A stretch of DNA of 23,249 nucleotides. Source: a virus. Below, piece after piece: positions 1,041 through 17,824 of the stretch. The DNA is taken from IMG/VR virus record IMGVR_UViG_3300006919_000473, positions 1 through 23,249 of that record; one strand, written 5' to 3'. Position 1 is the stretch's first letter. The number at the start of each line of letters is the position of its first letter. The notes beneath the pieces are model-generated. The model did not search any database. It saw nothing but the letters and a program-made list of their open reading frames with translations, and was not told the DNA's origin. The translations under genes and the position numbers were made by a program.

Positions 1041-1239
1041 CGTAGTAGCTCTTTGTATGTTTATAGGAGGTGTTCTTACAGAACATAGAATACAGCCCGC
1101 AATGTCAGATTGTTTAAAAGGAAAACGTGTTGCAGAACGTTCAGCAAATGATAATATTGAATATAAATGTGGAAAAGTAAAAGTAGAGTTAGAAGAAAAC
1201 ATAGACGGATCTAAAGCAATTAAAAAAATTATAGAATGA
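1021..1239 (+). CDS. Small membrane-anchored protein with a conserved cysteine pair
   Basis: A protein of 72 residues. It has a hydrophobic segment at about residues 4-20 (VISSVVALCMFIGGVLT), then a soluble part with C31 and C50 in the patterns DCLKGKRVAER and YKCGK, and an ending around ENIDGSKAIKKIIE. I recall close relatives of this C-terminal pattern (CLKGKR...C...DGSK) as a frequent small protein of marine phages, with no assigned function. The C31/C50 pair could form a disulfide if the domain is periplasmic. The gene overlaps the upstream frame by 20 bases and couples to the next by ATGA (1236-1239). It could be the partner of the preceding coiled-coil protein in lysis, though it lacks a clear lipobox. 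Confidence 0.65.
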   Translation: METVISSVVALCMFIGGVLTEHRIQPAMSDCLKGKRVAERSANDNIEYKCGKVKVELEENIDGSKAIKKIIE

Positions 1240-1811
1240 ATTTAATAAATCTTTTTCCTGTTACTATAGGCGATGTAGAATTTAAAGACAATTTTCAAAT
1301 AGATAAATCTTTAACTGAGCATTGTTTAAATATGAAAAATCAATTAAAAAAAGGTGGTTCTGATTGGGAATCAAATGTTTTTAATACTTGCGGTACTCAT
1401 TCTATTCTAGAAGATTCAAATTTTAAGTTGCTTAATGACTGGGTTTTAGAAAATATATTAAATTACTCAAAAAACATTGGTTACACTGAGGCAATTCAAA
1501 GCAAAGAAGGTTGGTTAAATATTTATGATGAACACGATTATCAGGAAATACATGATCATTTAGGTTACGATGTTTCAGCAATTTATTATTTAAAAGTTCC
1601 AAAAAATTCAGGTAAAACTTTTTTTGTTTCTCATGAAGCTAAAGGACCTAAAGAAGTTTTTATAGAAAAAAATCCCCACACTTGGAAAAAATTTTATATA
1701 ACGCCAAATCCAGGACGCTTGTTAATTTTCAAATCTAACTTACTTCATGGTGTAACTCAAAGTAAATCTAAGGATTACAAGATATCCTTAGCTTATAATT
1801 TTAAATTTTAA
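1236..1811 (+). CDS. Putative 2OG-Fe(II) oxygenase (HxH type)
   Basis: A protein of 191 residues with the plan of the short 2OG-Fe(II) oxygenase family found in cyanophages and pelagiphages (TIGR02466/PF13759-like). The central motif is WLNIYDEHDYQEIHDHLGYD at residues 93-112, with H106 and H108 as probable iron ligands in an HxH (rather than HxD) arrangement; the distal ligand is H171 in LLHGV. The terminal ISLAYNF strand matches the last strand of the double-stranded beta helix. Family members are expected to couple oxidation of a target to 2-oxoglutarate decarboxylation; the substrate is unknown. It couples to the upstream gene by ATGA and lies five bases before the endolysin gene, so it is expressed late. 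Other members of the same broad fold occur at 10704, 11270 and 15118. Confidence 0.8.
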   Translation: MNLINLFPVTIGDVEFKDNFQIDKSLTEHCLNMKNQLKKGGSDWESNVFNTCGTHSILEDSNFKLLNDWVLENILNYSKNIGYTEAIQSKEGWLNIYDEHDYQEIHDHLGYDVSAIYYLKVPKNSGKTFFVSHEAKGPKEVFIEKNPHTWKKFYITPNPGRLLIFKSNLLHGVTQSKSKDYKISLAYNFKF

Positions 1812-8080: not shown

Positions 8081-8737
8081 ATGTCATCAACATATACTGA
8101 TCTTGGAATAGAACTAATGGTTACAGGTGCCAACGATGGTACTTGGGGAACTAAAACAAATACAAATTTAGAAATTATTAACCAAATGCAAGGTTATGTA
8201 AATAAATCTATTGCAGGTGGTGCTCAAACAACTGCTTTATTAGTAGCGGATGGTTCCACATCATCTTCAGATGCAAGAAATTTAATTATAGAATTATCTG
8301 GAACAATCACAGGAAATCAAATTGTAACAGTGCCTAACAGTATTGAAAAATCTTATATTGTTTTTAACAATACTTCAGGAGCTCACACCGTTCAATTTAA
8401 AACAGCTAGTGGAAGTGGTCCTACATTTGCAACAACAGATAAAGGTAACAAAATTCTTTACAGTAATGGAACTAACATAATTGATGTAAACGCCAATCTC
8501 AGTTTTGCAGGCAATATTGTACCAGGAGCAAATGACACTTATGATTTAGGAGCTTCGGGAAATGTTTGGAGAAACGTATATACAGGAGATTTACATCTTA
8601 ATAATGAACATAAAACAGCGGGTAATATAGTTGACGGAACTAAAGGTAGCTGGACTTTACAGGAAGGTTCTGACGATATATACTTAATCAACAACAAATC
8701 TAATGAAAAATTTAGATTAAAGTTAGAAAAAATTTAA
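8081..8737 (+). CDS. Short tail fibre protein sharing the C-terminal cap of the long fibre
   Basis: A protein of 218 residues. The N-terminus (TYTDLGIELMVTGANDGTWG, then TKTNTNLEIINQ) is the short lead domain seen in many cyanophage and marine-phage fibre proteins. The middle (residues 60-145) is beta-rich (LIIELSGTITGNQIVTVPNS, YIVFNNTSGAHTVQF). The C-terminal 69 residues (150-218) align without gaps to residues 658-726 of the 4764 product; I count 47 identities. The cap includes GNVWRNVYTGDLHL, VDGTKG.W and QEG. This is probably an independent fibre or a partner of the long fibre using the same trimerisation tip. GAGAGGA at 8062-8068 is the ribosome-binding site, twelve bases from the ATG. 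Confidence 0.75.
   Translation: MSSTYTDLGIELMVTGANDGTWGTKTNTNLEIINQMQGYVNKSIAGGAQTTALLVADGSTSSSDARNLIIELSGTITGNQIVTVPNSIEKSYIVFNNTSGAHTVQFKTASGSGPTFATTDKGNKILYSNGTNIIDVNANLSFAGNIVPGANDTYDLGASGNVWRNVYTGDLHLNNEHKTAGNIVDGTKGSWTLQEGSDDIYLINNKSNEKFRLKLEKI
8528..8737 (+). repeat. Fibre C-terminal cap module, copy 2
   Basis: This encodes residues 150-218 of the short fibre, the counterpart of 6735-6944. The longest shared peptide is GNVWRNVYTGDLHL, and the shared VDGTKG and QEG motifs match a cap I recall from other marine-phage fibres. Confidence 0.85.
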
Positions 8738-8746
8738 GGAGAAACT

Positions 8747-9511
8747 ATGGGTATTATTTCAAATGGAAATACAGTAATTGATAATGGTGCTATTGAATCG
8801 AATGAAGTCGATACTACACAGATTGCAGCAAGCGCAGTTGAAACAGCAAAAATAAATAATGACGCAGTAACGGCAGATAAATTAGCTAACACTGCAGTGA
8901 CTGCAGGATCTTACACAACTGCAAATATTACAGTAGATGCTCAGGGAAGACTTACAGCTGCCGCAAGTGGAGCAGGTGGAGATGGAAGTTATTTTCCTAG
9001 ACTCCTAGCAATTGGACCAAGTTCTGGAAACGTTGCAACACCGGCTAATGCAGGAAAATTTTATGCTTACGTACAATCAGGCGGAGGCGGAGGTGGTGGA
9101 GGAACTACTATTCAAGGCCCTGGAGGACAAGGAGGCTCGGGTGGTTTTGCTCTTTACTCTGGAAACTGTGCAGCAAGCACAACCTATGCTTATGCAGTAG
9201 GCGCTATAGGAAATGGTGGCGGTGCTTCTGGTGGACCTGGAGCAGGTGGCAATTCAGGAGGTGACACAAACATAACAAATTTATTTACAGTTGGCGGAGG
9301 CGCTGGAGGAGGAGGAAGTCCAAGAAGTAATAACCAACCTGGATCACCAGGAGCAACTGGTGCAACTCCAGGATCAACTTCAGCCTTACCAACTTTTGCT
9401 TATCTAGCAGGTGGAAATACTGCAGCTCCAGGAGCTGGAGGAAACCCAAATCAACCGGGCTCATCTGGTGGAGTTGGTCATTTAGCTTTTTTTGATGATG
9501 GAGGACAGTAA
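8747..9511 (+). CDS. Glycine-rich adhesin / fibre tip protein
   Basis: A protein of 254 residues. Residues 19-58 carry four of the 10-residue AV..AKI-type repeats also present in the long fibre; a linker (ITVDAQGRLTAAASGAGGDG) follows, with a beta strand at about 84-110 (PRLLAIG, KFYAYVQ). From 111 to 244 it is extremely Gly-rich: eight consecutive glycines at 112-119, then GPGGQGGSGG, GGPGAGGNSGG, GGGAGGGG, and a collagen-like PGSPGATGATPGS (198-210). Glycine-rich segments of this sort form polyglycine-II bundles in phage adhesins such as the S16/T4-type gp38 tips, and similar tails end many marine-phage fibres. A receptor-binding tip is therefore likely. AAGGAG overlapping the previous stop is its ribosome-binding site. 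Confidence 0.75.
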   Translation: MGIISNGNTVIDNGAIESNEVDTTQIAASAVETAKINNDAVTADKLANTAVTAGSYTTANITVDAQGRLTAAASGAGGDGSYFPRLLAIGPSSGNVATPANAGKFYAYVQSGGGGGGGGTTIQGPGGQGGSGGFALYSGNCAASTTYAYAVGAIGNGGGASGGPGAGGNSGGDTNITNLFTVGGGAGGGGSPRSNNQPGSPGATGATPGSTSALPTFAYLAGGNTAAPGAGGNPNQPGSSGGVGHLAFFDDGGQ

Positions 9512-9513
9512 TC

Positions 9514-9948
9514 ATGGCATATTTAATAGTTAATTCACAAAATCAATTATATAAAATTGCAAGTAACGACACTGAAAAAAATAATCAAAATTGTACAATA
9601 CCACCTTACTCAACAATAGAAATATCTGATGCTGATTTTTTAAAAATTAAACAAAATTTAGTTAACATTAATATTTCTGGCGAAACTGCATCATTTACTG
9701 ATATTGATTTTACTGATTTTAGTTTTAGTGAAACTCACCTTACGGAATATCATAAAGATGTAATACAATCTTTAACATCTTTTATGGATGTTAACAAAGA
9801 TCACTCATTTTGGAATGAAGCAAACGATTACCGTGGCTTTTTACAATCTTTTGATTATGCTTCTTTAAGCCTCCCACTATCAATTACATGGGAAAAATAT
9901 TGTCAGGATAATTCTATAAGTTATATTCATCCTTTACAGATTCCATAA
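9514..9948 (+). CDS. Unknown protein following the adhesin; possible fibre-assembly partner
   Basis: A protein of 144 residues with GGAGG at 9500-9504 before the ATG. The N-terminal part is beta-like (MAYLIVNSQNQLYKIASND, then IPPYSTIEISDADFLKIK). The C-terminal half is more helical and aromatic (DHSFWNEANDYRGFLQSFDY, LPLSITWEKYCQDN, YIHPLQIP). I recall similar short proteins directly after glycine-rich fibre genes in marine phages, but no proven role. Its place straight after the adhesin makes a dedicated chaperone or assembly protein, like those that follow tail fibres in T4- and lambda-type phages, a reasonable guess. There is no catalytic motif. Confidence 0.6.
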   Translation: MAYLIVNSQNQLYKIASNDTEKNNQNCTIPPYSTIEISDADFLKIKQNLVNINISGETASFTDIDFTDFSFSETHLTEYHKDVIQSLTSFMDVNKDHSFWNEANDYRGFLQSFDYASLSLPLSITWEKYCQDNSISYIHPLQIP

Positions 9949-9966
9949 AATTGTTTACAAAAAGGC

Positions 9967-10713
9967 GTGTTTGAGAATATTATTAAATTTAAGGCTAATC
10001 CAAAATATATTGATACACATCAAAAATATTTACCAACACCAGCTAAATTAAACATTCCAGAATGGTTTAAAAAATTAAATCATGGCGTAGACATGAAAAC
10101 TGTAAAAGGTTGTGTTCCTTTTCTAGACTCTCTTACTTCTGGGTATATTTTGAAAATGCCAATTGATTATTTTATAGAACATAATACTTTAGTGGAAGGT
10201 GAAAGACAAACTAAAATGGTAGCTGGAAATGAAATATATAGATATTCCAACCTCCCTAATGAAGTAAATTTAAATTATGGACAACCTGAGTTTCACCCTA
10301 CTCTACAGTTAAAAGGATGCCCTCTTGTAGAAAAAAATAAAAAACTTTCTTTTCACAAAATTTTAAACCCTTGGATTATTGAAACTCCACCAGGATATTC
10401 AACATTGTTTTTACCACCTTTAAACAATACTGACGATAGATTTTCTATTATACCTGGAATAGTTGACACAGATACATTTAAAGATGAAGTAAATTTTCCA
10501 ATTGTAGTGAATGGCGATAAATACCATACTTTAGAAACAACAATAGAGATAGGTACACCTTATGTACAAGTAATTCCTTTCAAAAGAGAACCTTGGAAAA
10601 TGAAAATAGAAAAAATAAGTGCAAAAGAAAGACAAGATAGTAGGGCTTTTTCTTTTCAACATTTAATTGGTAATTACAAAAAAAAATACTGGCATAAAAA
10701 AATATGGAAATAA
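9967..10713 (+). CDS. Conserved protein of unknown function (DUF6065-like layout), GTG start
   Basis: A protein of 248 residues. An in-frame stop at 9946-9948 and no earlier ATG make GTG at 9967 the first usable start; AAAGG is only one base before it, so the site is unusual. Recognisable blocks are LNIPEWFKKL, VKGCVPFLDSLTSGYILKMP, HKILNPWIIETPPGYSTLF, FSIIPGIVDTDTF and IEIGTPYVQVIPFKREPW. This order (P..D, NPW.I.TPPGYS, G.VDTD, G.P..Q..P..R) resembles the DUF6065-type family that sits beside oxygenase and glycosylation genes in other genomes, although the match is from memory. The fold looks beta-rich and perhaps cupin-like, but I see no HxD iron motif. It overlaps the next gene by 10 bases. 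Confidence 0.65.
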   Translation: MFENIIKFKANPKYIDTHQKYLPTPAKLNIPEWFKKLNHGVDMKTVKGCVPFLDSLTSGYILKMPIDYFIEHNTLVEGERQTKMVAGNEIYRYSNLPNEVNLNYGQPEFHPTLQLKGCPLVEKNKKLSFHKILNPWIIETPPGYSTLFLPPLNNTDDRFSIIPGIVDTDTFKDEVNFPIVVNGDKYHTLETTIEIGTPYVQVIPFKREPWKMKIEKISAKERQDSRAFSFQHLIGNYKKKYWHKKIWK

Positions 10714-11282
10714 ATTCTAATTTAGATAATTATATAAAAGTTTTTGATGATGTAATGCCTTTAACGGCTTTAGAAAATTTAATAAGAATTTGTAAGGAAA
10801 GAAAAGAATTTGACCCCGCTAAAGTAGGTGGAAGAAATCAAGTATTAGACACTGAAATGAGAAAAACTTTTGCGTGGACTATGGAAAATTTAAAAGAATC
10901 AAGTATGACAACAATTCATTGGACTAATTATTTATATTTTTTGTTTGAATCAGCAATAAAAGAATATCAAAAAAATTTTGATATATCATACAGATGTATA
11001 ATACAGGATATTCAAATTTTAAAATATTTTGTTGGAGGTTTTTATAAATTTCACGTAGATCATGCAGGTACCTCACCTCGAACTATAAGCTGTATTTATT
11101 TTTTAAATGATGATTTTGAAGGTGGTGATTTACTTTTTAAATTTCCAAAAGTAAATTCAGAGTATAAAATAAAACATAAAAAAAATAGAATGATCGTGTG
11201 GCCAAGTAATTTTTTATTTCCACATTGTGTGACTCCTGTCACAAAAGGAGAAAGGTATTCAGTAGTAACATGGGCGTTATAG
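10704..11282 (+). CDS. Prolyl-4-hydroxylase-like 2OG-Fe(II) oxygenase
   Basis: A protein of 192 residues matching the P4H-type 2OG-Fe(II) oxygenase fold. LKYFVGGFYKFHVDHAG (107-122) carries H117-V-D119, the HxD iron pair. TISCIYFLNDDFEGGDLLF (128-146) carries the usual FEGGDL strand. IVWPSNFLFPHCVTPVTKGE (164-183) carries the distal H174, and R184 in GERYSVVTW should bind the 2-oxoglutarate carboxylate. All catalytic positions are intact, so an active enzyme is likely. Relatives hydroxylate proline or other residues in proteins. The substrate is unknown; the Gly/Pro-rich adhesin three genes upstream is a candidate. The ATG overlaps the previous frame by 10 bases with no clear ribosome-binding site, implying translational coupling. 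Confidence 0.8.
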   Translation: MEINSNLDNYIKVFDDVMPLTALENLIRICKERKEFDPAKVGGRNQVLDTEMRKTFAWTMENLKESSMTTIHWTNYLYFLFESAIKEYQKNFDISYRCIIQDIQILKYFVGGFYKFHVDHAGTSPRTISCIYFLNDDFEGGDLLFKFPKVNSEYKIKHKKNRMIVWPSNFLFPHCVTPVTKGERYSVVTWAL

Positions 11283-11830
11283 GAAAAGATTTTGATTATA
11301 AAAAAGTAGAAAATTTTTTAACAAAAGATGAAATAAATTTATTAGCTATTTATTGTGAATTAAAACATAAAATTAATATCACTCAATTTGACAATACAAA
11401 TAACAACAACATGGATACTAGGTTTTATGGAGACGCTATTATGGATTCTTTGTTATTAAGCAAACAACCTTTTATGGAAAAAATTACTGGTAAAAAATTA
11501 CTAGCAACATATTCTTTTTGGAGATGTTATACAAAATATTCTAATCTTTTAAAGCATAAAGATAGACCCCCTTGTGAAATCAGTGTTACCGTTAAAATAA
11601 GTGGAGATAAAGAATGGCCAATTTATATGAATGATACACCAGTAGATTTAGAAAATGGTGATGCTGTTATATATCTTGGAAATAAATTAACCCATCATAG
11701 AGAAGAGTTTACAGGAGATTATCAGTTTCAAACATTTTTACATTATGTTGATGCAGATGGTGAATTTACTGATCACTTTATGGATGGAAGACAATACTGG
11801 GGAATTACTTGGAAAAAAAATGAAATTTGA
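11270..11830 (+). CDS. 2OG-oxygenase-fold protein with HKD...HHR motif
   Basis: A protein of 186 residues when started at the ATG at 11270. An earlier in-frame ATG at 11225 would put 15 residues inside the previous catalytic region and is less likely; AGGAG and AAAGG lie at 11246-11255. Key blocks are LLKHKDRPPCEISVTVKISG (93-112) with H96-K-D98, EWPIYMNDTPVDLENGDAVI (115-134), and the LTHHREEF motif (140-147) with H142 as probable distal ligand, then QTFLHYVDADGEF. This is a marine-phage type of double-stranded-beta-helix protein in which H.D and H.R positions match 2OG oxygenases. It overlaps both neighbours (13 bases upstream, 11 downstream), so these three genes are likely made together. 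Confidence 0.7.
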   Translation: MGVIGKDFDYKKVENFLTKDEINLLAIYCELKHKINITQFDNTNNNNMDTRFYGDAIMDSLLLSKQPFMEKITGKKLLATYSFWRCYTKYSNLLKHKDRPPCEISVTVKISGDKEWPIYMNDTPVDLENGDAVIYLGNKLTHHREEFTGDYQFQTFLHYVDADGEFTDHFMDGRQYWGITWKKNEI

Positions 11831-12056
11831 TCAAAAAAAAGACGGTTCGTGTGAGATAATTTTTTCTGATGATGAAATAAATGTTATTAATAAGTATAAA
11901 AAGCTTCATCTGACTCAAGAGTTTCTAAGACATTTTTCAAACAAACTAGTAAATATTTGTATTGAATTTAATAAAAATTTTGATGAAGAAACGAAAAAAA
12001 AAATTACTTTTGAAGACTCTAAGATAATAGCTACAAAACCAAAACAAGAGGGTTGA
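11820..12056 (+). CDS. 78-residue protein of unknown function
   Basis: I start this gene at the ATG at 11820, which overlaps the end of the previous gene by 11 bases; an in-frame ATG at 11745 lies deep inside the oxygenase frame and is less plausible. The product is mixed-charge and helical (IIFSDDEINVINKYKKLHLT, FLRHFSNKLVNICIEFNKNF) with a Lys-rich tail. It has no membrane segment and no recognised motif. Its coupling to the oxygenase gene suggests a partner or small regulator of that module, but this rests on position alone. It is followed by a 42-base gap. Confidence 0.55.
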   Translation: MKFDQKKDGSCEIIFSDDEINVINKYKKLHLTQEFLRHFSNKLVNICIEFNKNFDEETKKKITFEDSKIIATKPKQEG

Positions 12057-12098
12057 TACCAGACTTTAATGGTGGCTTATAATATTGTATAATACCAT
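12053..12098 (+). promoter_or_regulatory. AT-rich intergenic region, possible promoter and near-leaderless start
   Basis: TTGATA (12053-12058), 19 bases, then TATAAT (12078-12083) give a promoter-like pair, with a second TATAAT at 12088-12093. TTATA (12077-12081) and TATAA (12088-12092) can pair around a 6-base loop. No Shine-Dalgarno sequence precedes the ATG at 12099. If the first -10 is used, the leader would be about nine bases. TAATATTG at 12080-12087 recurs in the gap before 17874. In DNA this AT-rich the match could be chance. Confidence 0.3.
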
Positions 12099-14009
12099 AT
12101 GCCTTTAACAAACATACAAATAGCACCAGGATTCAATAAACAAGTCACTGAGACAGGAGCTGAAGGTCAATGGACTGATGGAGATTTTGTAAGATTTAGG
12201 TATGGATCTCCTGAAAAAATTGGTGGTTGGGAACAAATTACAGCAAAAACATTTATTGGTGCTGCAAGAGAACAATTAGTTTGGGCTGATTTAGATGGTA
12301 GAAAATATGCGGCAATAGGAACAAACAAAGCTTTAATTATATATTATGAAGGTGCTTTCTATGACATAACACCTTTACATACAGCTGTTACTGGATGTAC
12401 ATTTACTACTACAAATACTTCAGCGACTGTAACGGTAAATAAATCAGGGCACGGATTAGAAGTTTCAGACTTATTTACTTTTACTTCAGTAACACCTCCT
12501 ACAGGTGCGGGATACGTTGCATCTGATTTTGAAACAAATACATTTGAAGTAATTACTTCTTCTGTAAACAGTTTTACAATTACTATGGCATCTGCTGCAT
12601 CAGGGGCTACAACGGGCACCGGATCAGCGACCGTAAATCCTTATGTAAAGCCAGGGCCATTAAATGCAACAGCAGGGTATGGATGGGGAACTGGAACTTG
12701 GGGTAGAGGAAAATGGGGTTCTGCTTCAACAACTAGTAATGTTATTATAGATCCTGCTTCGTGGTCATTAGATAACTTTGGTCAAGTTCTAATTTCAACA
12801 ATAAAAAATGGAAAAACTTTTTCTTGGAATCCTATAAATGCAAATGCAAATGCATTAACAACAAGAGCAACAGTCGTAAGTGGAGCACCAACAAGGTCTG
12901 TTATGTCTATTGTGTCAGATAGAGATAGACATTTAATAGTTCTTGGGACTGAAACAACAATTGGCAGTGATACTACACAAGACAAAATGTTTATTAGATT
13001 TTCTAATCAAGAATCACTTACTGAATATACGCCTACTTCAACCAATACCGCAGGAACGTTTAGATTAGACTCTGGTGTAAGAATTGTTGGAGCGGCCAAA
13101 GGTAAAGATTACATTTTAATTTTAACGGACACTTCTGCGTATGTAATGCAATTTGTTGGACCGCCATTTACTTTTTCAATTAGACAAGTAGGTAGTAATT
13201 GTGGATTGATTGGTCAACATGCTATTCATTATGTTAATGGTAGAGTGTGGTGGATGGGACAAGCAGGAGGCTTTTTTGTTTATGATGGTACGGTTAAATC
13301 TGTTCCTTGTTTAGTTGAAGACTTTGTATTCACTAAAACTGGAAGTAATTTAGGAATTAATTACAGTGCGGGCGAACAAGTGTATGCTGGTTTAAATCAT
13401 CTTTATGAAGAAATTAATTGGTTTTATCCAAAAAATGGTTCTGAATTAGTGGACAGAGTTGTAACTTATAATTACACCGAAAATACTTGGACTACAGGAT
13501 CTTTAGCAAGAACTACATTTCATGATTCAACATTATTTGATAACCCATATGCAACAGAATATAATAACACAGGAACACCTTCATTTCCCGTTATTCAAGG
13601 AGTAACAAACAAAAATGGTGCTTCTACTTATTATGCGCATGAGGTTGGAGTAAACGAAGTAGATAGTGTAGGTAATAAAACTGCAATACCTGCATTTATA
13701 CAGTCTGGAGATTTTGACTTGTCTGTAGGAGGCGATGGAGAATTTTTTATGAGTTTAAGAAGATTTATACCTGATTTTAAAAGACTTGTTGGAAACGCAC
13801 AAATTACTATTAATTTAAGAAATTATCCTACAAGCACAGCATCAAGCTCACCTTTAGGGCCATTTACAATATCGAGCTCTACTGATAAAGTAGATACACG
13901 TGCAAGATCAAGATTTGCAAGTGTAAAAGTTGCTAATCTTTCGACAGATCAAAGTTGGAGATACGGTACTTTTAGAGCTGATGTACAACCAGATGGAATG
14001 AGGGGCTAA
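12099..14009 (+). CDS. P22 gp10-like tail hub / packaged-DNA stabilisation protein
   Basis: A protein of 636 residues. The N-terminus (MPLTNIQIAPGFNKQVTETG, GQWTDGDFVRFRYGSPEKIG, GW) is the standard opening of P22 gp10-like proteins, which sit below the connector and keep DNA in the head. Residues about 98-185 look like an inserted Ig-like beta domain (TFTTTNTSATVTVNKSGHGL, ITSSVNSFTIT). A propeller-like repetitive part follows: WGTGTWGRGKWG, GAAKGKDYILILTDTSAYVM, INGRVWWMGQAGGFFVYDG-type strands (here VNGRVWWMGQ), and RVVTYNYTENTW. P22 gp10 is shorter, about 470 residues, and the insert accounts for part of the difference. No ribosome-binding site precedes the ATG. It is coupled downstream by TAATG. 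Confidence 0.7.
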   Translation: MPLTNIQIAPGFNKQVTETGAEGQWTDGDFVRFRYGSPEKIGGWEQITAKTFIGAAREQLVWADLDGRKYAAIGTNKALIIYYEGAFYDITPLHTAVTGCTFTTTNTSATVTVNKSGHGLEVSDLFTFTSVTPPTGAGYVASDFETNTFEVITSSVNSFTITMASAASGATTGTGSATVNPYVKPGPLNATAGYGWGTGTWGRGKWGSASTTSNVIIDPASWSLDNFGQVLISTIKNGKTFSWNPINANANALTTRATVVSGAPTRSVMSIVSDRDRHLIVLGTETTIGSDTTQDKMFIRFSNQESLTEYTPTSTNTAGTFRLDSGVRIVGAAKGKDYILILTDTSAYVMQFVGPPFTFSIRQVGSNCGLIGQHAIHYVNGRVWWMGQAGGFFVYDGTVKSVPCLVEDFVFTKTGSNLGINYSAGEQVYAGLNHLYEEINWFYPKNGSELVDRVVTYNYTENTWTTGSLARTTFHDSTLFDNPYATEYNNTGTPSFPVIQGVTNKNGASTYYAHEVGVNEVDSVGNKTAIPAFIQSGDFDLSVGGDGEFFMSLRRFIPDFKRLVGNAQITINLRNYPTSTASSSPLGPFTISSSTDKVDTRARSRFASVKVANLSTDQSWRYGTFRADVQPDGMRG

Positions 14010-14611
14010 TGGATCCTATAACACAAAGAATTTTAGATCAACAAAGAGCAATAACGGATAATCCAAATTTTAGTGGATATACACCATCAAATCAAAGTGG
14101 TATTGCAACTATAAATGCTTCACCCCTAAACGAAGATCTTTCATTTGAAAATACATTTTTACCTCAAGAAACCCCACCTATAGATGTTAAGCAATTAGCA
14201 ACCAATGTTGGTAAAAAAATGGTGACAGATTTTGCTGTAAAAAAATTAGGCATAGATGGATTAAAAGGTAATGTATTGAAATCAGTTATAGGAGGTAATA
14301 CTCTTATGGGTTTAAGTAATCCTCTTACAGCAGCTTTTACAGTAGGCTCATTATTACCAGATTCAGTAAAAGGAATTGCAGGTATACTAAGAAACAATAG
14401 AGCACAGAAAGCTATTCAAAGAGATATAATTAAAGACATGCAAGGACAAATAACTACAACTAATCCTAAAATTACAAACATGCAGCCTACAGCAAGAGAT
14501 AAAGCTATGGGTGGAGGAAATAATTATACAGCTCCGGCTTCCTCTTCAAAATCATCCCCTAGATCTGAAAGACATAGTGGTGGAGCAGGCGGACTACATT
14601 CAGGTTACTAA
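14009..14611 (+). CDS. Unknown virion-associated protein with Gly/Ser-rich tail
   Basis: A protein of 200 residues whose ATG overlaps the gp10-like stop. Residues 1-60 are polar and probably extended. Residues about 62-130 form helices with two hydrophobic stretches (VLKSVIGGNTLMGLSNPLTA, AFTVGSLLPDSVKGIAGIL). The C-terminus is low-complexity (AMGGGNNYTAPASSSKSSPR, then GGAGGLHSGY). The hydrophobic middle is not long enough for a confident membrane span. Placement between the gp10-like gene and small structural genes suggests a minor virion protein. I do not recognise the family. Confidence 0.6.
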   Translation: MDPITQRILDQQRAITDNPNFSGYTPSNQSGIATINASPLNEDLSFENTFLPQETPPIDVKQLATNVGKKMVTDFAVKKLGIDGLKGNVLKSVIGGNTLMGLSNPLTAAFTVGSLLPDSVKGIAGILRNNRAQKAIQRDIIKDMQGQITTTNPKITNMQPTARDKAMGGGNNYTAPASSSKSSPRSERHSGGAGGLHSGY

Positions 14612-14613
14612 TA

Positions 14614-14778
14614 ATGGCTAGAGTAGATATAGTAATTCCAGAACCCACTCCTGTTTATGAAGAAGAAAATCAAAGACAAGTAACTCAGTCTTTACGAACC
14701 ATGCAAGATAAGTTAAATACATCTTATCAACAAGAACTTAGAAATGAACAAAATGCTTTTAATTATTTTTTATCATGA
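14614..14778 (+). CDS. 54-residue helical protein
   Basis: The frame begins MARVDIVIPEPTPVYEEENQ, continues as a charged helix (TQSLRTMQDKLNTSYQQELR), and ends NAFNYFLS. It starts two bases after the upstream stop and its TGA overlaps the next ATG (ATGA at 14775-14778). I recall the pattern IPEPTPVY...NQRQ...Q...YQQ.L.NEQ..FNYFLS as a widespread tiny protein in marine phages, always beside the following small beta protein. Function is unknown; a short helical virion or neck peptide is possible. Confidence 0.65.
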   Translation: MARVDIVIPEPTPVYEEENQRQVTQSLRTMQDKLNTSYQQELRNEQNAFNYFLS

Positions 14779-15125
14779 CCATACAATATAAAAATCAAGG
14801 ATTTAAACAAGCAAGCACAGGTAAGACTACTGCACTTACATGCCCAAGTGATGCAACAATAATTGTAAAAAGCGTATACTGTGCAAACAATGATGCTTCA
14901 TCTGCTATTATAGTAAACATGAATTTAGTAGATTCTTCTGATTCAAGCACAGAGTATGAGTTTTTTAGAGATGATCTAGCTGCTAAATCACAAGTTAATG
15001 CTACACCTGAAGGTCTAAATTTAGAAGCAGGTGATGCCATAACAGTTACAGCGGCTACAGGTAGTAATAAAATACAAGGTGCTATAAGTTATGCATTGAT
15101 AGACAGATCTCAAGAAAATGGTTAG
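14775..15125 (+). CDS. Small beta-sandwich structural protein
   Basis: A protein of 116 residues with strands TIQYKNQGFKQASTGKTTAL, ATIIVKSVYCANNDASSAII, VNMNLVDSSDSSTEYEFF, and an ending EGLNLEAGDAITVTAATGSN and IQGAISYALIDRS. The alternation and the LEAGDAI turn imply a compact beta-sandwich of the kind used in phage decoration or tail-knob proteins, and similar proteins are frequent in marine phages. No ribosome-binding site is visible, so translation is probably coupled through ATGA. It overlaps the next gene by eight bases. The exact role is unknown. Confidence 0.65.
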   Translation: MTIQYKNQGFKQASTGKTTALTCPSDATIIVKSVYCANNDASSAIIVNMNLVDSSDSSTEYEFFRDDLAAKSQVNATPEGLNLEAGDAITVTAATGSNKIQGAISYALIDRSQENG

Positions 15126-15678
15126 ACATACAATTTTTACAAACTCTATTGTTGCTGATACTTACCCAAACGAAAAATTAAAAAATCTTATTTTGCACGA
15201 TTTAGAGCTGCACAAAAAAATCGGTGGGAGAGATATATCTAATCATGGTGGTTTCCAAACTCAAGATCTTACAAACGAAAATATTTTAGGAGAAATTCAT
15301 AAAAAATCAGAACAATTAATATTAGCAAATTACAAATTATTTGCTAAAAAAATTAAAATATTAAATGTTTGGATTAATGTTAATAAAAAAAGAGATTTTA
15401 ATAAAATTCATTTACATCCTGGTAGTCATTTTTCTGGAATTTATTATTTAAATGGCTCTAAAAAAGGTGGAGAGTTAGAAATTTTAAGAGATGATGCTAC
15501 CTTATTTTCTGATCAAAGTCAGTTTTTACCTGATGATACAGATTTTATTACAACTTTTAAAATACAACCTAAAGATAATTTATTTATATTATTTCCTTCT
15601 CAGTTAAAACATATGGTCTTGCCGCATTATGATGAAGGAGAAAGAATTTCAGTATCATTTAACATAGGATTTTTTTAA
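15118..15678 (+). CDS. Putative 2OG-Fe(II) oxygenase (HxH type, TIGR02466-like)
   Basis: A protein of 186 residues. NVWINVNKKRDFNKIHLHPG (83-102) contains H98-L-H100, and SHFSGIYYLNG (103-113) gives the next strand. The distal histidine is H165 in FPSQLKHMV, and R176 in EGERISVSFNI is the likely 2-oxoglutarate-binding arginine. The motifs W.N.N..(R/G)....HLHPGS..SGIYYL and F.....H.V.P....R.S.SFN are diagnostic of the small 2OG oxygenases carried by marine phages (PF13759). Substrates of phage members are not established. It lies between a small virion protein and a basic 44-residue protein, overlapping both, and shares the HxH arrangement with the gene at 1236 but little else. Confidence 0.85.
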   Translation: MVRHTIFTNSIVADTYPNEKLKNLILHDLELHKKIGGRDISNHGGFQTQDLTNENILGEIHKKSEQLILANYKLFAKKIKILNVWINVNKKRDFNKIHLHPGSHFSGIYYLNGSKKGGELEILRDDATLFSDQSQFLPDDTDFITTFKIQPKDNLFILFPSQLKHMVLPHYDEGERISVSFNIGFF

Positions 15679-15812
15679 TGGCACGTCAAAAGTTTACTCA
15701 CTTTATACCAAGAGCAAAACCAAAAAAACGTCCGAGAAGGCATAAAAAAAGGCTTAACAAAAATGAAAAAAGAGATTATAAACAATACAATAAACAAGGA
15801 AGAAAACAATGA
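15678..15812 (+). CDS. 44-residue highly basic protein conserved in marine phages
   Basis: The frame begins MARQKFTHFIPRAKPKKRPR and continues RHKKRLNKNEKRDYKQYNKQ before the end GRKQ. By my count nearly half of the residues are Lys, Arg or His. It starts by TAATG overlap with the oxygenase stop and ends by ATGA overlap with the next gene. I recall the motif KKRPRRHKK.LNK.EKR..K.YN.QG as strongly conserved in marine phages, also beside structural genes. The charge suggests DNA or RNA binding, or a packaged protein; the function is unestablished. It is short enough that many annotations would miss it. Confidence 0.65.
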   Translation: MARQKFTHFIPRAKPKKRPRRHKKRLNKNEKRDYKQYNKQGRKQ

Positions 15813-16006
15813 GCGATGTAATAAAAATACCTGCGGAAGCAAAAGAAATTATTAAACACAAAAAAACAGGACAGGTCTATGCTACCAAAGCTGATTTTGA
15901 TGCTGATGTTGCTGATCCCAATACTGATACTACTGTGGATGATTTTCGACAAGACCTTGAAATAAAGGTGACAAAAGTTTCTATGGGTGCTAAAACCAAG
16001 GAATAA
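15809..16006 (+). CDS. 65-residue conserved phage protein
   Basis: A small acidic protein beginning MSDVIKIPAEAKEIIKHKKT and continuing GQVYATKADFDADVADPNTD, TTVDDFRQDLEIKVTKVSMG. AAGGAAG upstream gives a good ribosome-binding site, and it is joined by ATGA upstream and TAATG downstream. The segment KTG.VY.....FDADVADP..DT is one I recall from other marine phages next to the basic small protein, with no known function. No cysteines or membrane span are present. Confidence 0.65.
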   Translation: MSDVIKIPAEAKEIIKHKKTGQVYATKADFDADVADPNTDTTVDDFRQDLEIKVTKVSMGAKTKE

Positions 16007-16935
16007 TGGAACCCAGAGGAGCCACTGAGCTACAGTTTGAATTACTGGAAAAGCACGTGCCAAAAGAATTACTTGATCAAGTACAAATATGTACTTCTAT
16101 TCCAGGCAAGGTTCCTATTGATCCAAACAAATTAAATATTCTTTGGCAGAAAAATTCTTGGGATCAAAACAATCTTCAACCTTTTTTTAGAGATAAGACA
16201 AGGCATAATGAATATGATTGGTATGTATTCAATAGTCATTGGAACTACGAAAAGTTTAGATACTTTTTTAATATACCCACTGAAAAATGTGTAGTCATCA
16301 AAAACGGTATTAATAATTTTCCAAAAAGAAAAGTTTACAAGAAGGGTGATCCAATAAAAATATTACACCACAATACTCCCTGGAGAGGATTGAATGTGTT
16401 ATTGGCTGCTATGCAATTAGTTAAAAACCCCAACATCACTTTAGATGTCTACAGTTCTTCTCAAGTATATGGAGATGCTTTCTCTAGTAGAAATGAAAAA
16501 GATTTTGAACCATTATATGACCAAGCAAAACAAATGCCAAATGTAAATTATATTGGATATAAACCTAATGAATATATTTTAGAACACATTACAGATTATG
16601 ATTTATATGTTTACCCTAGTAATTTTGAAGAAACATTTTGTGCTTCCGCGTTAGAAGCGTTAGCTGCAGGTGTTCATGTGATAACTAATAATTTTGGTGC
16701 ATTATATGAGACTTGTGCTGAGTGGCCTGTATACGTTAATTATGATTCAGACAATGAAAGAATGGCAAATGATACAGCTGCTGCTATTAATGTTGCTGCA
16801 TTATATTTACATGAACCATATATACAAGAGCATCTTGAGGAACAGCAAAAATTTTATAAACGATTTTATAATTGGACAAAAAAAGGATTAGAATGGGAAA
16901 GCTTTTTACGTGGAGCTTTAAGTGGAAGAAAATAA
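16006..16935 (+). CDS. GT-B glycosyltransferase (group 1, GT4-like)
   Basis: A protein of 309 residues. The N-terminal half is shorter than in bacterial GT4 enzymes and opens MEPRGATELQFELLEKHVPK; it includes a Rossmann-like YDWYVFNSHWNYEKF and VVIKNGIN (96-103). The C-terminal half has the donor-site pattern: ILHHNTPWRGLNVLLAAMQL (119-138), PNVNYIGYKPNEYI, and then YVYPSNFEETFCASALEALA (201-220), where E209 and E217 form the EX7E motif that binds the nucleotide sugar. It should transfer a sugar from an NDP-sugar; the acceptor is not evident. It lies inside a virion operon, coupled to its neighbours, so virion proteins or host surface polysaccharide are both plausible targets. Confidence 0.85.
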   Translation: MEPRGATELQFELLEKHVPKELLDQVQICTSIPGKVPIDPNKLNILWQKNSWDQNNLQPFFRDKTRHNEYDWYVFNSHWNYEKFRYFFNIPTEKCVVIKNGINNFPKRKVYKKGDPIKILHHNTPWRGLNVLLAAMQLVKNPNITLDVYSSSQVYGDAFSSRNEKDFEPLYDQAKQMPNVNYIGYKPNEYILEHITDYDLYVYPSNFEETFCASALEALAAGVHVITNNFGALYETCAEWPVYVNYDSDNERMANDTAAAINVAALYLHEPYIQEHLEEQQKFYKRFYNWTKKGLEWESFLRGALSGRK

Positions 16936-17824
16936 AACATATATTAACGAAGACACTTATCAAACTTTAAAAGATGTTAAAGTGGCACCATCAAATCAAA
17001 AAGAAACTGAACTAACAGAATACGAAAAACGTATTAAACCAATATGGATAAACAACACCGGACAACGGAAAAGTAAAATATCTTTATTTGTTGCTACACC
17101 TGTCCACAGTGATTGTTCTATACATTACACACAAGGATTATTAAAATTACAAAAAATATGCATGGAGAAAAAAATTGATATTCAATTTCAATTACTTAAA
17201 TCATCTCTAGTTACACAAGGAAGAAATTTGTGTGTATCAGGCTTTATAGAATCTGGAATGACTCACATGTTATTTGTTGATTCAGATATATTAATGAATG
17301 CAGAATCTATTTTTAAAATGATAGACAGAGACAAAGACATTATTTCAATTCCATACCCAATTAAAACATTTAATTGGGATAAAGCTTTTGATGCAATAAA
17401 AAAAGGTGAGGTAAAGAAACCTTCTGATATTCATAAATTTACCAATAGTTATCCAATGAGAGTAGAAGATACTAATGATATTGTTGTAAATAGAGGTGTT
17501 ATAGAAGTAACTCATAGCCCAACAGGGTGCATGCTTATTAAAAGAAAAGTGTTTGATAAAATGATTAAACATTATCCAGATAAAGAGATAGTTCAAAAAA
17601 CAATTATAAACGGTGAGTATGTAAACAGACCCCATATGTGGAACTTTTTTGATTGCATTCACGACCCTGAAACAAAGACATATTTAGGCGAAGATTTTAG
17701 TTTTTGTAAACTATGGAAAGACATAGGGGGTAAGTGCTATGCCTTTATTGATGATCCAATTATGCATATTGGGGAGCATCAGTATAAAGGATGTTTTGCC
17801 GATGAGTTGATAATACCTAAGTAA
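16922..17824 (+). CDS. GT-A-like glycosyltransferase with DxD motif, GTG start
   Basis: A protein of 300 residues starting at GTG 16922, with GGAG six bases upstream and a 14-base overlap with the GT-B gene; no better start is present. Residues 1-50 are a polar extension. The GT-A core runs ISLFVATPVHSD (53-64), LVTQGRNLCVSGFIESGMTH (96-115), LFVDSDI (117-123) with the D120-S-D122 metal motif, then YPIKTF. Later TYLGEDFSFCKLWKDIGGK (253-271) is the acid-containing acceptor/catalytic block, and HIGEH (282-286) can supply the third metal ligand. This matches GT2-like/Anp1-like phage enzymes. Pairing with a GT-B enzyme suggests a two-sugar glycan, an inference. Confidence 0.75.
   Translation: MEENKTYINEDTYQTLKDVKVAPSNQKETELTEYEKRIKPIWINNTGQRKSKISLFVATPVHSDCSIHYTQGLLKLQKICMEKKIDIQFQLLKSSLVTQGRNLCVSGFIESGMTHMLFVDSDILMNAESIFKMIDRDKDIISIPYPIKTFNWDKAFDAIKKGEVKKPSDIHKFTNSYPMRVEDTNDIVVNRGVIEVTHSPTGCMLIKRKVFDKMIKHYPDKEIVQKTIINGEYVNRPHMWNFFDCIHDPETKTYLGEDFSFCKLWKDIGGKCYAFIDDPIMHIGEHQYKGCFADELIIPK

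Follow-up and report, generated by a model that had tools for sequence, protein, structure and literature searches.

We analysed a 23,249-base stretch of DNA (hereafter the window), an IMG/VR virus contig, and in particular the genes between positions 8747 and 12099, where a glycine-rich adhesin gene is followed by genes for a predicted Fe(II)/2-oxoglutarate (2OG) oxygenase of the prolyl-hydroxylase type (P4H) and for a second oxygenase-like protein (O2). Across relatives of this locus, P4H and O2 are inherited jointly with the type of adhesin. Since the product of 12099-14009 is 61% identical to an HTVC023P protein and 58% identical to an HTVC027P protein, and the virion gene order matches that of these two cultured SAR11 podoviruses, the window belongs to an HTVC023P-type pelagiphage. 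The open reading frames (ORFs) named in a first-pass annotation of this DNA were all located in an ORF check, and the following genes make up the stretch and its borders (type A is the adhesin type of the window):

8081..8737, plus strand: fibC fibre protein (phrog_31104 and tail-fibre PHROGs)
8747..9511, plus strand: glycine-rich adhesin with a variable C-terminal part (shuffle test, alignment, structure model)
9514..9948, plus strand: adhesin-partner ORF, 144 aa (gene maps)
9967..10713, plus strand: companion of the type A adhesin, phrog_7084 (PHROG match and predicted fold)
10704..11282, plus strand: P4H-like, prolyl-hydroxylase-type 2OG/Fe(II) oxygenase (PF13640, E 1.2e-18)
11270..11830, plus strand: O2, second oxygenase-like protein, database name 'ferrochelatase' (phrog_2954; invariant motif)
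11820..12056, plus strand: small conserved ORF at the end of the type A island (gene maps), listed from 11745 but with its likely start at the internal ATG at 11820
12099..14009, plus strand: virion structural (stabilization-type) protein, downstream boundary of the island and survey anchor (phrog_3287, E 5.6e-87)

The prediction of a P4H-like 2OG oxygenase with all of its catalytic residues at 10704 is borne out by the PF13640 match and by H117, D119, H174 and R184, which are invariant in 37 relatives and represent the HxD...H iron site and the distal basic 2OG residue. A PDB search identified PHD2/EGLN1 as the closest solved relative (E 3.5e-9), with prolyl 3- and 4-hydroxylases and the PKHD-type PiuC ranking lower, and we predict that the product is a complete prolyl-hydroxylase-type 2OG oxygenase. 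The start of O2 was moved from a TTG at 11225 to an ATG at 11270 because its relatives align from there. O2 matches no Pfam family at E values up to 1, ferrochelatase models included; the PDB search returned no match and profile comparison with the P4H family revealed no link. An H-x-D motif and a distal histidine (H96, D98 and H142) are invariant in 30 relatives. As this motif is found in place of any ferrochelatase model match, we rejected a ferrochelatase identity for the 11270 gene and treat the name carried by phrog_2954 as a label only; judged by its motif alone, O2 is most likely another oxygenase.

The adhesin had been read as carrying collagen-like triplets, but these occur at chance level. 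PGSPGATGATPGS of the 8747 product contains three Gly-X-Y triplets with one proline at Y; GSPGATGAT is the sole strict Gly-X-Y run in the protein, and three or more such triplets appear in 38% of shuffles of its glycine-rich part (P=0.38). The longest runs in 99 glycine-rich adhesins of relatives are likewise at the shuffled level, with a mean of 2.78 triplets compared with 2.63 after shuffling. A structure model built on 30 relatives, with a predicted local distance difference test score (pLDDT) above 85 across most of residues 81-210, has as its top structural match the fibre of cyanophage Pam3 (7ypx; Z 15.3, 163 residues, root-mean-square deviation 2.7), with further matches to the Bxb1 tail tip (Z 14.7) and the glycine-rich domains of LTK/ALK (Z 8-9). 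The modelled product thus has the predicted fold of solved glycine-rich, polyglycine II (PGII)-type phage fibre tips, which together with the shuffles rules out the collagen reading. The 8747 protein itself has no Pfam match, and related adhesins of the group match PF21722 (Gly_rich_2) or the tail collar domain. The gp38 proteins of S16 and PP01 have a PGII sandwich bearing variable receptor loops (PMC12892980). A glycine-rich tip core with variable loops, as in the 8747 product, appears common to the gp38 adhesins of T2, S16 and PP01 (PMC12892980) and to the structurally matching Pam3 fibre (7ypx); unlike at the 8747 locus, modification enzymes beside such adhesins are not described in the parts of these sources that were available. 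The N-terminal repeat of the adhesin (8747-8960) is 56-66% identical to stretches of proteins from the cyanophage podoviruses S-RIP1, S-RIP2 and P-GSP1, a likeness that would point to fibre parts having been exchanged between phages that infect different hosts.

For a survey of relatives, the 12099 protein was taken as a neutral anchor and related loci were fetched with 10 kb flanks; loci containing relatives of P4H and of one island carbamoyltransferase were added. In gene maps the adhesins fall into three main types, and each type has a partner ORF of its own. Type A, represented by the window, consists of a glycine-rich adhesin, the 9514 ORF, often the 9967 gene, P4H and O2; type B has a Gly_rich_2 adhesin with the partner y147, followed by oxygenases, and type C has one to three collar proteins with the partner y126 and oxygenases mostly on the opposite strand. 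Within each type, P4H and O2 hold their order and orientation. The 9514 ORF always lies immediately behind the type A adhesin, replacing the y147 or y126 of the other types, and homologues of y147 in phages that lack the enzymes are mostly still located beside fibre or large tail genes, which fits a role as adhesin partner. Upstream, the N-terminal domain of fibC is the anchor immediately preceding the adhesin and, as alignments show, is fused to it in many relatives.

Joint inheritance was assessed by counting changes of adhesin type on protein trees. Across 116 thinned loci, the tree of the 12099 protein requires 22 changes whereas that of the nearest P4H requires four. For the 82 loci that also have a fibre domain immediately upstream of the adhesin, the P4H tree needs three changes, compared with 11 for the upstream fibre domain and 15 for the 12099 protein; with shuffled labels the count rises to approximately 38. 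The O2 tree has two changes, and pooling all P4H paralogues (146 sequences) gives eight compared with 68 after shuffling. The upstream fibre domain lies closer to the adhesin than does P4H, so proximity by itself does not account for the link. An individual comparison illustrates the exchange: between locus L007 and the window, the 12099 protein is 88% and the fibC domain 90% identical, yet L007 carries a collar adhesin and its P4H is only 23% identical. A comparison of 9967-11830 with phage records at the DNA level yielded a single 65-base match and nothing else.

The stretch between the adhesin and the 12099 homologue contains up to a dozen enzymes in relatives. Pfam searches with representatives identified carbamoyltransferases (PF02543), a tryptophan halogenase (PF04820, E 7e-94), sulfotransferases (PF00685/PF13469), APS-kinase-like and cytidylyltransferase-like proteins, a methyltransferase, a DXD glycosyltransferase, more 2OG proteins, DUF6445 and JmjC/cupin proteins; in several additional island families the HxD...H motif is fully conserved. 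Carbamoyltransferase genes are present in 19 and halogenase genes in five of the 116 loci, and the window has neither. In four loci (L042, L085, L118 and L189) sulfotransferase genes adjoin APS-kinase-like genes, accompanied in three of the four by cytidylyltransferase/ATP-sulfurylase-like genes, as if sulfate activation arrived together with the sulfotransferase. In five others (L271, L272, L276, L281 and L282) the carbamoyltransferase matches are spread over two or three adjacent ORFs, representing split genes, separate domains or sequencing errors, and an island ORF at L131:5996-6670 gives a weak QueC-like ATP-pyrophosphatase match (E 0.004). Within 89 islands, 321 of the 391 non-adhesin ORFs of at least 90 aa belong to tailoring families, compared with 15 of 451 in the remaining parts of these loci, a contrast inflated by the seeding of the hidden Markov models from island genes. 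The annotation of complete genomes, which is free of this bias, places all 2OG oxygenase/ferrochelatase genes of HTVC023P, HTVC027P and 023Pt_psg01 between the fibre genes and the 12099 homologue, and the oxygenases are thus largely confined to the adhesin slot. The first-pass annotation had named oxygenases that occur independently of Gly/Pro-rich fibres as evidence that would refute its proposal, and for the narrow claim this refutation holds: the same enzymes lie beside collar-domain adhesins, which are not Gly-rich, in 34 of the 89 loci.

The variable gene content of this slot, on either strand, and the presence of similar enzymes elsewhere in cyanophage genomes could indicate that the adhesin locus tolerates insertions as a hot spot, and that its enzymes are unrelated morons with small-molecule substrates. 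We judge this quite unlikely, as a hot spot would be expected to accumulate mixed functions, yet 82% of the other ORFs encode tailoring enzymes, the order and orientation of P4H and O2 are constant for each adhesin type and the same combination recurs in the Kyanoviridae. In the Synechococcus myophages S-CAM8 and S-MS29, a protein with 30-32% glycine is followed by a carbamoyltransferase, a 2OG protein, a 'ferrochelatase' (O2), a y147 homologue and more 2OG proteins; in the Pelagibacter myophage HTVC008M, a Gly-rich adhesin and a y147 homologue are accompanied by five reversed oxygenase-type genes in series; and in S-MbCM7, 2OG genes flank the tail assembly chaperone on both sides, behind the short tail fibres. 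These are independent repeats of the arrangement.

We consider it probable that the stretch from 8747 to 12099 is an exchangeable adhesin-tailoring island whose oxygenases modify the adhesin or its partner. The nearest solved relatives of P4H are protein hydroxylases and the enzyme is inherited with the adhesin type, and for these reasons the most likely substrate is its cognate adhesin or the product of the partner ORF that lies between the two genes. Several observations weigh against this interpretation. Plain linkage can cause adjacent genes to be exchanged together, and the upstream neighbour is a control for this rather than proof. Three loci (L035, L038 and L064) have a Gly-rich adhesin and no tailoring gene, and two of the four oxygenase-type genes in the window, both PF13759, lie outside the island. 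Adhesins have nearly the same Trp/Tyr content whether or not the locus carries a halogenase. Such oxygenases are located beside replication genes in the cyanomyophage P-SSM2, and S-RIM44 has halogenase or carbamoyltransferase genes away from its fibres, showing that these enzyme families have other settings too. Adhesin composition showed no clear difference in relation to the presence of a halogenase or carbamoyltransferase at the locus, and a scan of viral contigs for halogenase relatives returned only its own contig. GLY3-type loci lacking oxygenases were too few and were kept out of the evidence.

The enzymes might instead act on the host, either on its outer membrane or surface glycan, for example against superinfection, or on its metabolism (2OG and nitrogen status, or iron). 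Carbamoyl- and sulfotransferases frequently act on sugars, which is compatible with such a target. Sullivan et al. (PMC3037559) suggested that these genes serve nitrogen-stress signalling through 2OG drawdown, citing DNA repair as well, and Wittmers et al. 2022 (PMC9599517), writing on this very phage group, described these genes as metabolic genes located together with ferrochelatases and related them to the host iron response. Our analysis departs from that host-metabolism reading on two points: an oxygenase motif is present in the 'ferrochelatase', and the cluster follows the adhesin. Enzymes directed at the host would not be expected to be inherited jointly with the adhesin type, and we regard this alternative as unlikely. 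The terms adhesin, halogenase and carbamoyltransferase were not found in PMC9599517, and a limited literature search found no report that ties these enzymes to adhesins or describes hydroxylation of adhesins or fibres in phages. Phage halogenases have been guessed to give protection from antibiotics (PMC2984593).

If the tailoring interpretation holds, the island would supply a glycine-rich PGII-type receptor-binding tip together with its partner, as well as two or more Fe(II)/2OG oxygenases. The most likely task of these oxygenases would be to hydroxylate residues in the adhesin (or in the partner ORF product) during virion assembly in the cell. In relatives, the same slot also holds NodU-type carbamoyltransferases, flavin halogenases, methyltransferases, JmjC/cupin proteins, and sulfotransferases with APS-kinase-like genes. 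These enzymes could target the hydroxyl groups or aromatic residues, and hydroxylation followed by carbamoylation or sulfation is plausible there. Such modification would broaden the chemistry displayed on the surface of the receptor-binding tip, and the benefit might lie in the choice of receptor or in resisting host proteases. We tentatively suggest, at somewhat short of even confidence, that an exchangeable module is common to marine phages of at least two families: a receptor-binding adhesin travels with matched, natural-product-like tailoring enzymes (hydroxylases, carbamoyltransferases, halogenases and sulfotransferases), and host recognition would thereby evolve through swaps of side-chain chemistry in addition to changes in sequence.

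The companion gene at 9967 belongs to a family (phrog_7084) that is conserved in type A islands and has relatives in haloarchaeal tailed viruses. Its product has a predicted dUTPase-like beta fold (model pLDDT 79; Plasmodium dUTPase, Z 10.9 over 119 residues), and could therefore belong to a DNA hypermodification pathway, in which a base is hydroxylated by an oxygenase and capped by a carbamoyl- or glycosyltransferase. This combination of 2OG, carbamoyltransferase and glycosyltransferase chemistry exists for phage DNA (5-methylcytosine-type). However, the best PDB relatives of P4H are protein prolyl hydroxylases, and no protein of the window matches a Tet/JBP model, the oxygenase models matched in Pfam being PF13640, PF13759 and PF03171 only. 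In addition, halogenases and sulfotransferases do not fit such a pathway and the genes swap with the adhesin rather than with replication genes, making DNA a very improbable substrate.

Few unexplained genes of marine phages are as frequent as those for 2OG oxygenases, which are present in 76 of 153 cyanophage genomes (PMC10452541) and for over a decade have been interpreted in terms of DNA repair, nitrogen stress or iron metabolism. If they act on adhesins, a large class of 'auxiliary metabolic genes' would in truth serve virion tailoring, the host range of phages would hinge on chemistry invisible in sequence alone, and the role of phage halogenases and carbamoyltransferases would gain a concrete test in phages already in culture. 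The island halogenases of relatives match PF04820 and VirX1, but differ from VirX1/PrnA-type phage flavin halogenases in their setting, which is beside adhesins in HTVC023P-type phages. Mycobacteriophage glycosyltransferases (e.g. PMC11256854) offer a parallel, as they too are proposed to modify virion proteins of the phage that encodes them, whereas the chemistry here would be mainly hydroxylation, with carbamoylation, halogenation and sulfation in relatives, within an exchangeable adhesin module.

Four further genes of the window, located outside the island, bear on these interpretations:

16006..16935, plus strand: GT-B glycosyltransferase (PF00534, E 1.3e-13)
16922..17824, plus strand: GT-A-like protein, paired with the GT-B gene (weak PF03452; phrog_1574, E 2.2e-36)
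15118..15678, plus strand: PF13759 2OG-type oxygenase behind the small ORF 14775-15125 (E 2e-21)
1236..1811, plus strand: PF13759 2OG-type oxygenase adjoining the endolysin gene (E 1.4e-16)

The first-pass annotation proposed a two-step scheme for the 8747 fibre, with P4H hydroxylating its collagen-type prolines before the glycosyltransferase pair adds sugars to them. Mimivirus, with its collagen lysyl hydroxylase/glucosyltransferase, provides a precedent for a virus that hydroxylates and then decorates its own surface protein, and every enzyme type required is present in the one window. Of the pair, the GT-B member is clear from its Pfam match, and the GT-A member is indicated weakly, by a match to PF03452 (Anp1) at E 0.001, which is under the curated cut-off. 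In gene maps the position of the pair is constant, flanked by the homologues of 14775 and 17874. In the same loci, GT-B requires 10 changes of adhesin type compared with three for P4H, and GT-A nine compared with four, so that the glycosyltransferase trees follow adhesin type no better than the 12099 protein does; moreover, 023Pt_psg01 possesses the oxygenases but no such pair. These three observations separate the pair from the adhesin module, and it may act on another virion or host component. Unlike the mimivirus system, the window has no true collagen repeats, Gly-X-Y triplets being at chance level, and glycosylation of the fibre by this pair is unsupported by the tree test; we give the combined hydroxylation-glycosylation scheme hardly any credence. 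What stands of the proposal that the phage modifies its own fibre is that the oxygenases are part of the adhesin locus and that their inheritance follows the adhesin type, whereas collagen-type proline hydroxylation and the glycosyltransferase step fall away.

Second and third 2OG-fold proteins were also predicted. The PF13759 match supports the third (15118-15678), while the second, O2 (the ORF from 11225), has its motif and no Pfam match; the PF13759 gene at 1236-1811 had been overlooked. H98, H100 and H165 are conserved in the 15118-15678 product, and both PF13759 proteins keep H-x-H...H (98-100%) in comparison with the usual 2OG H-x-D...H, suggesting that their metal site may differ from the textbook one.

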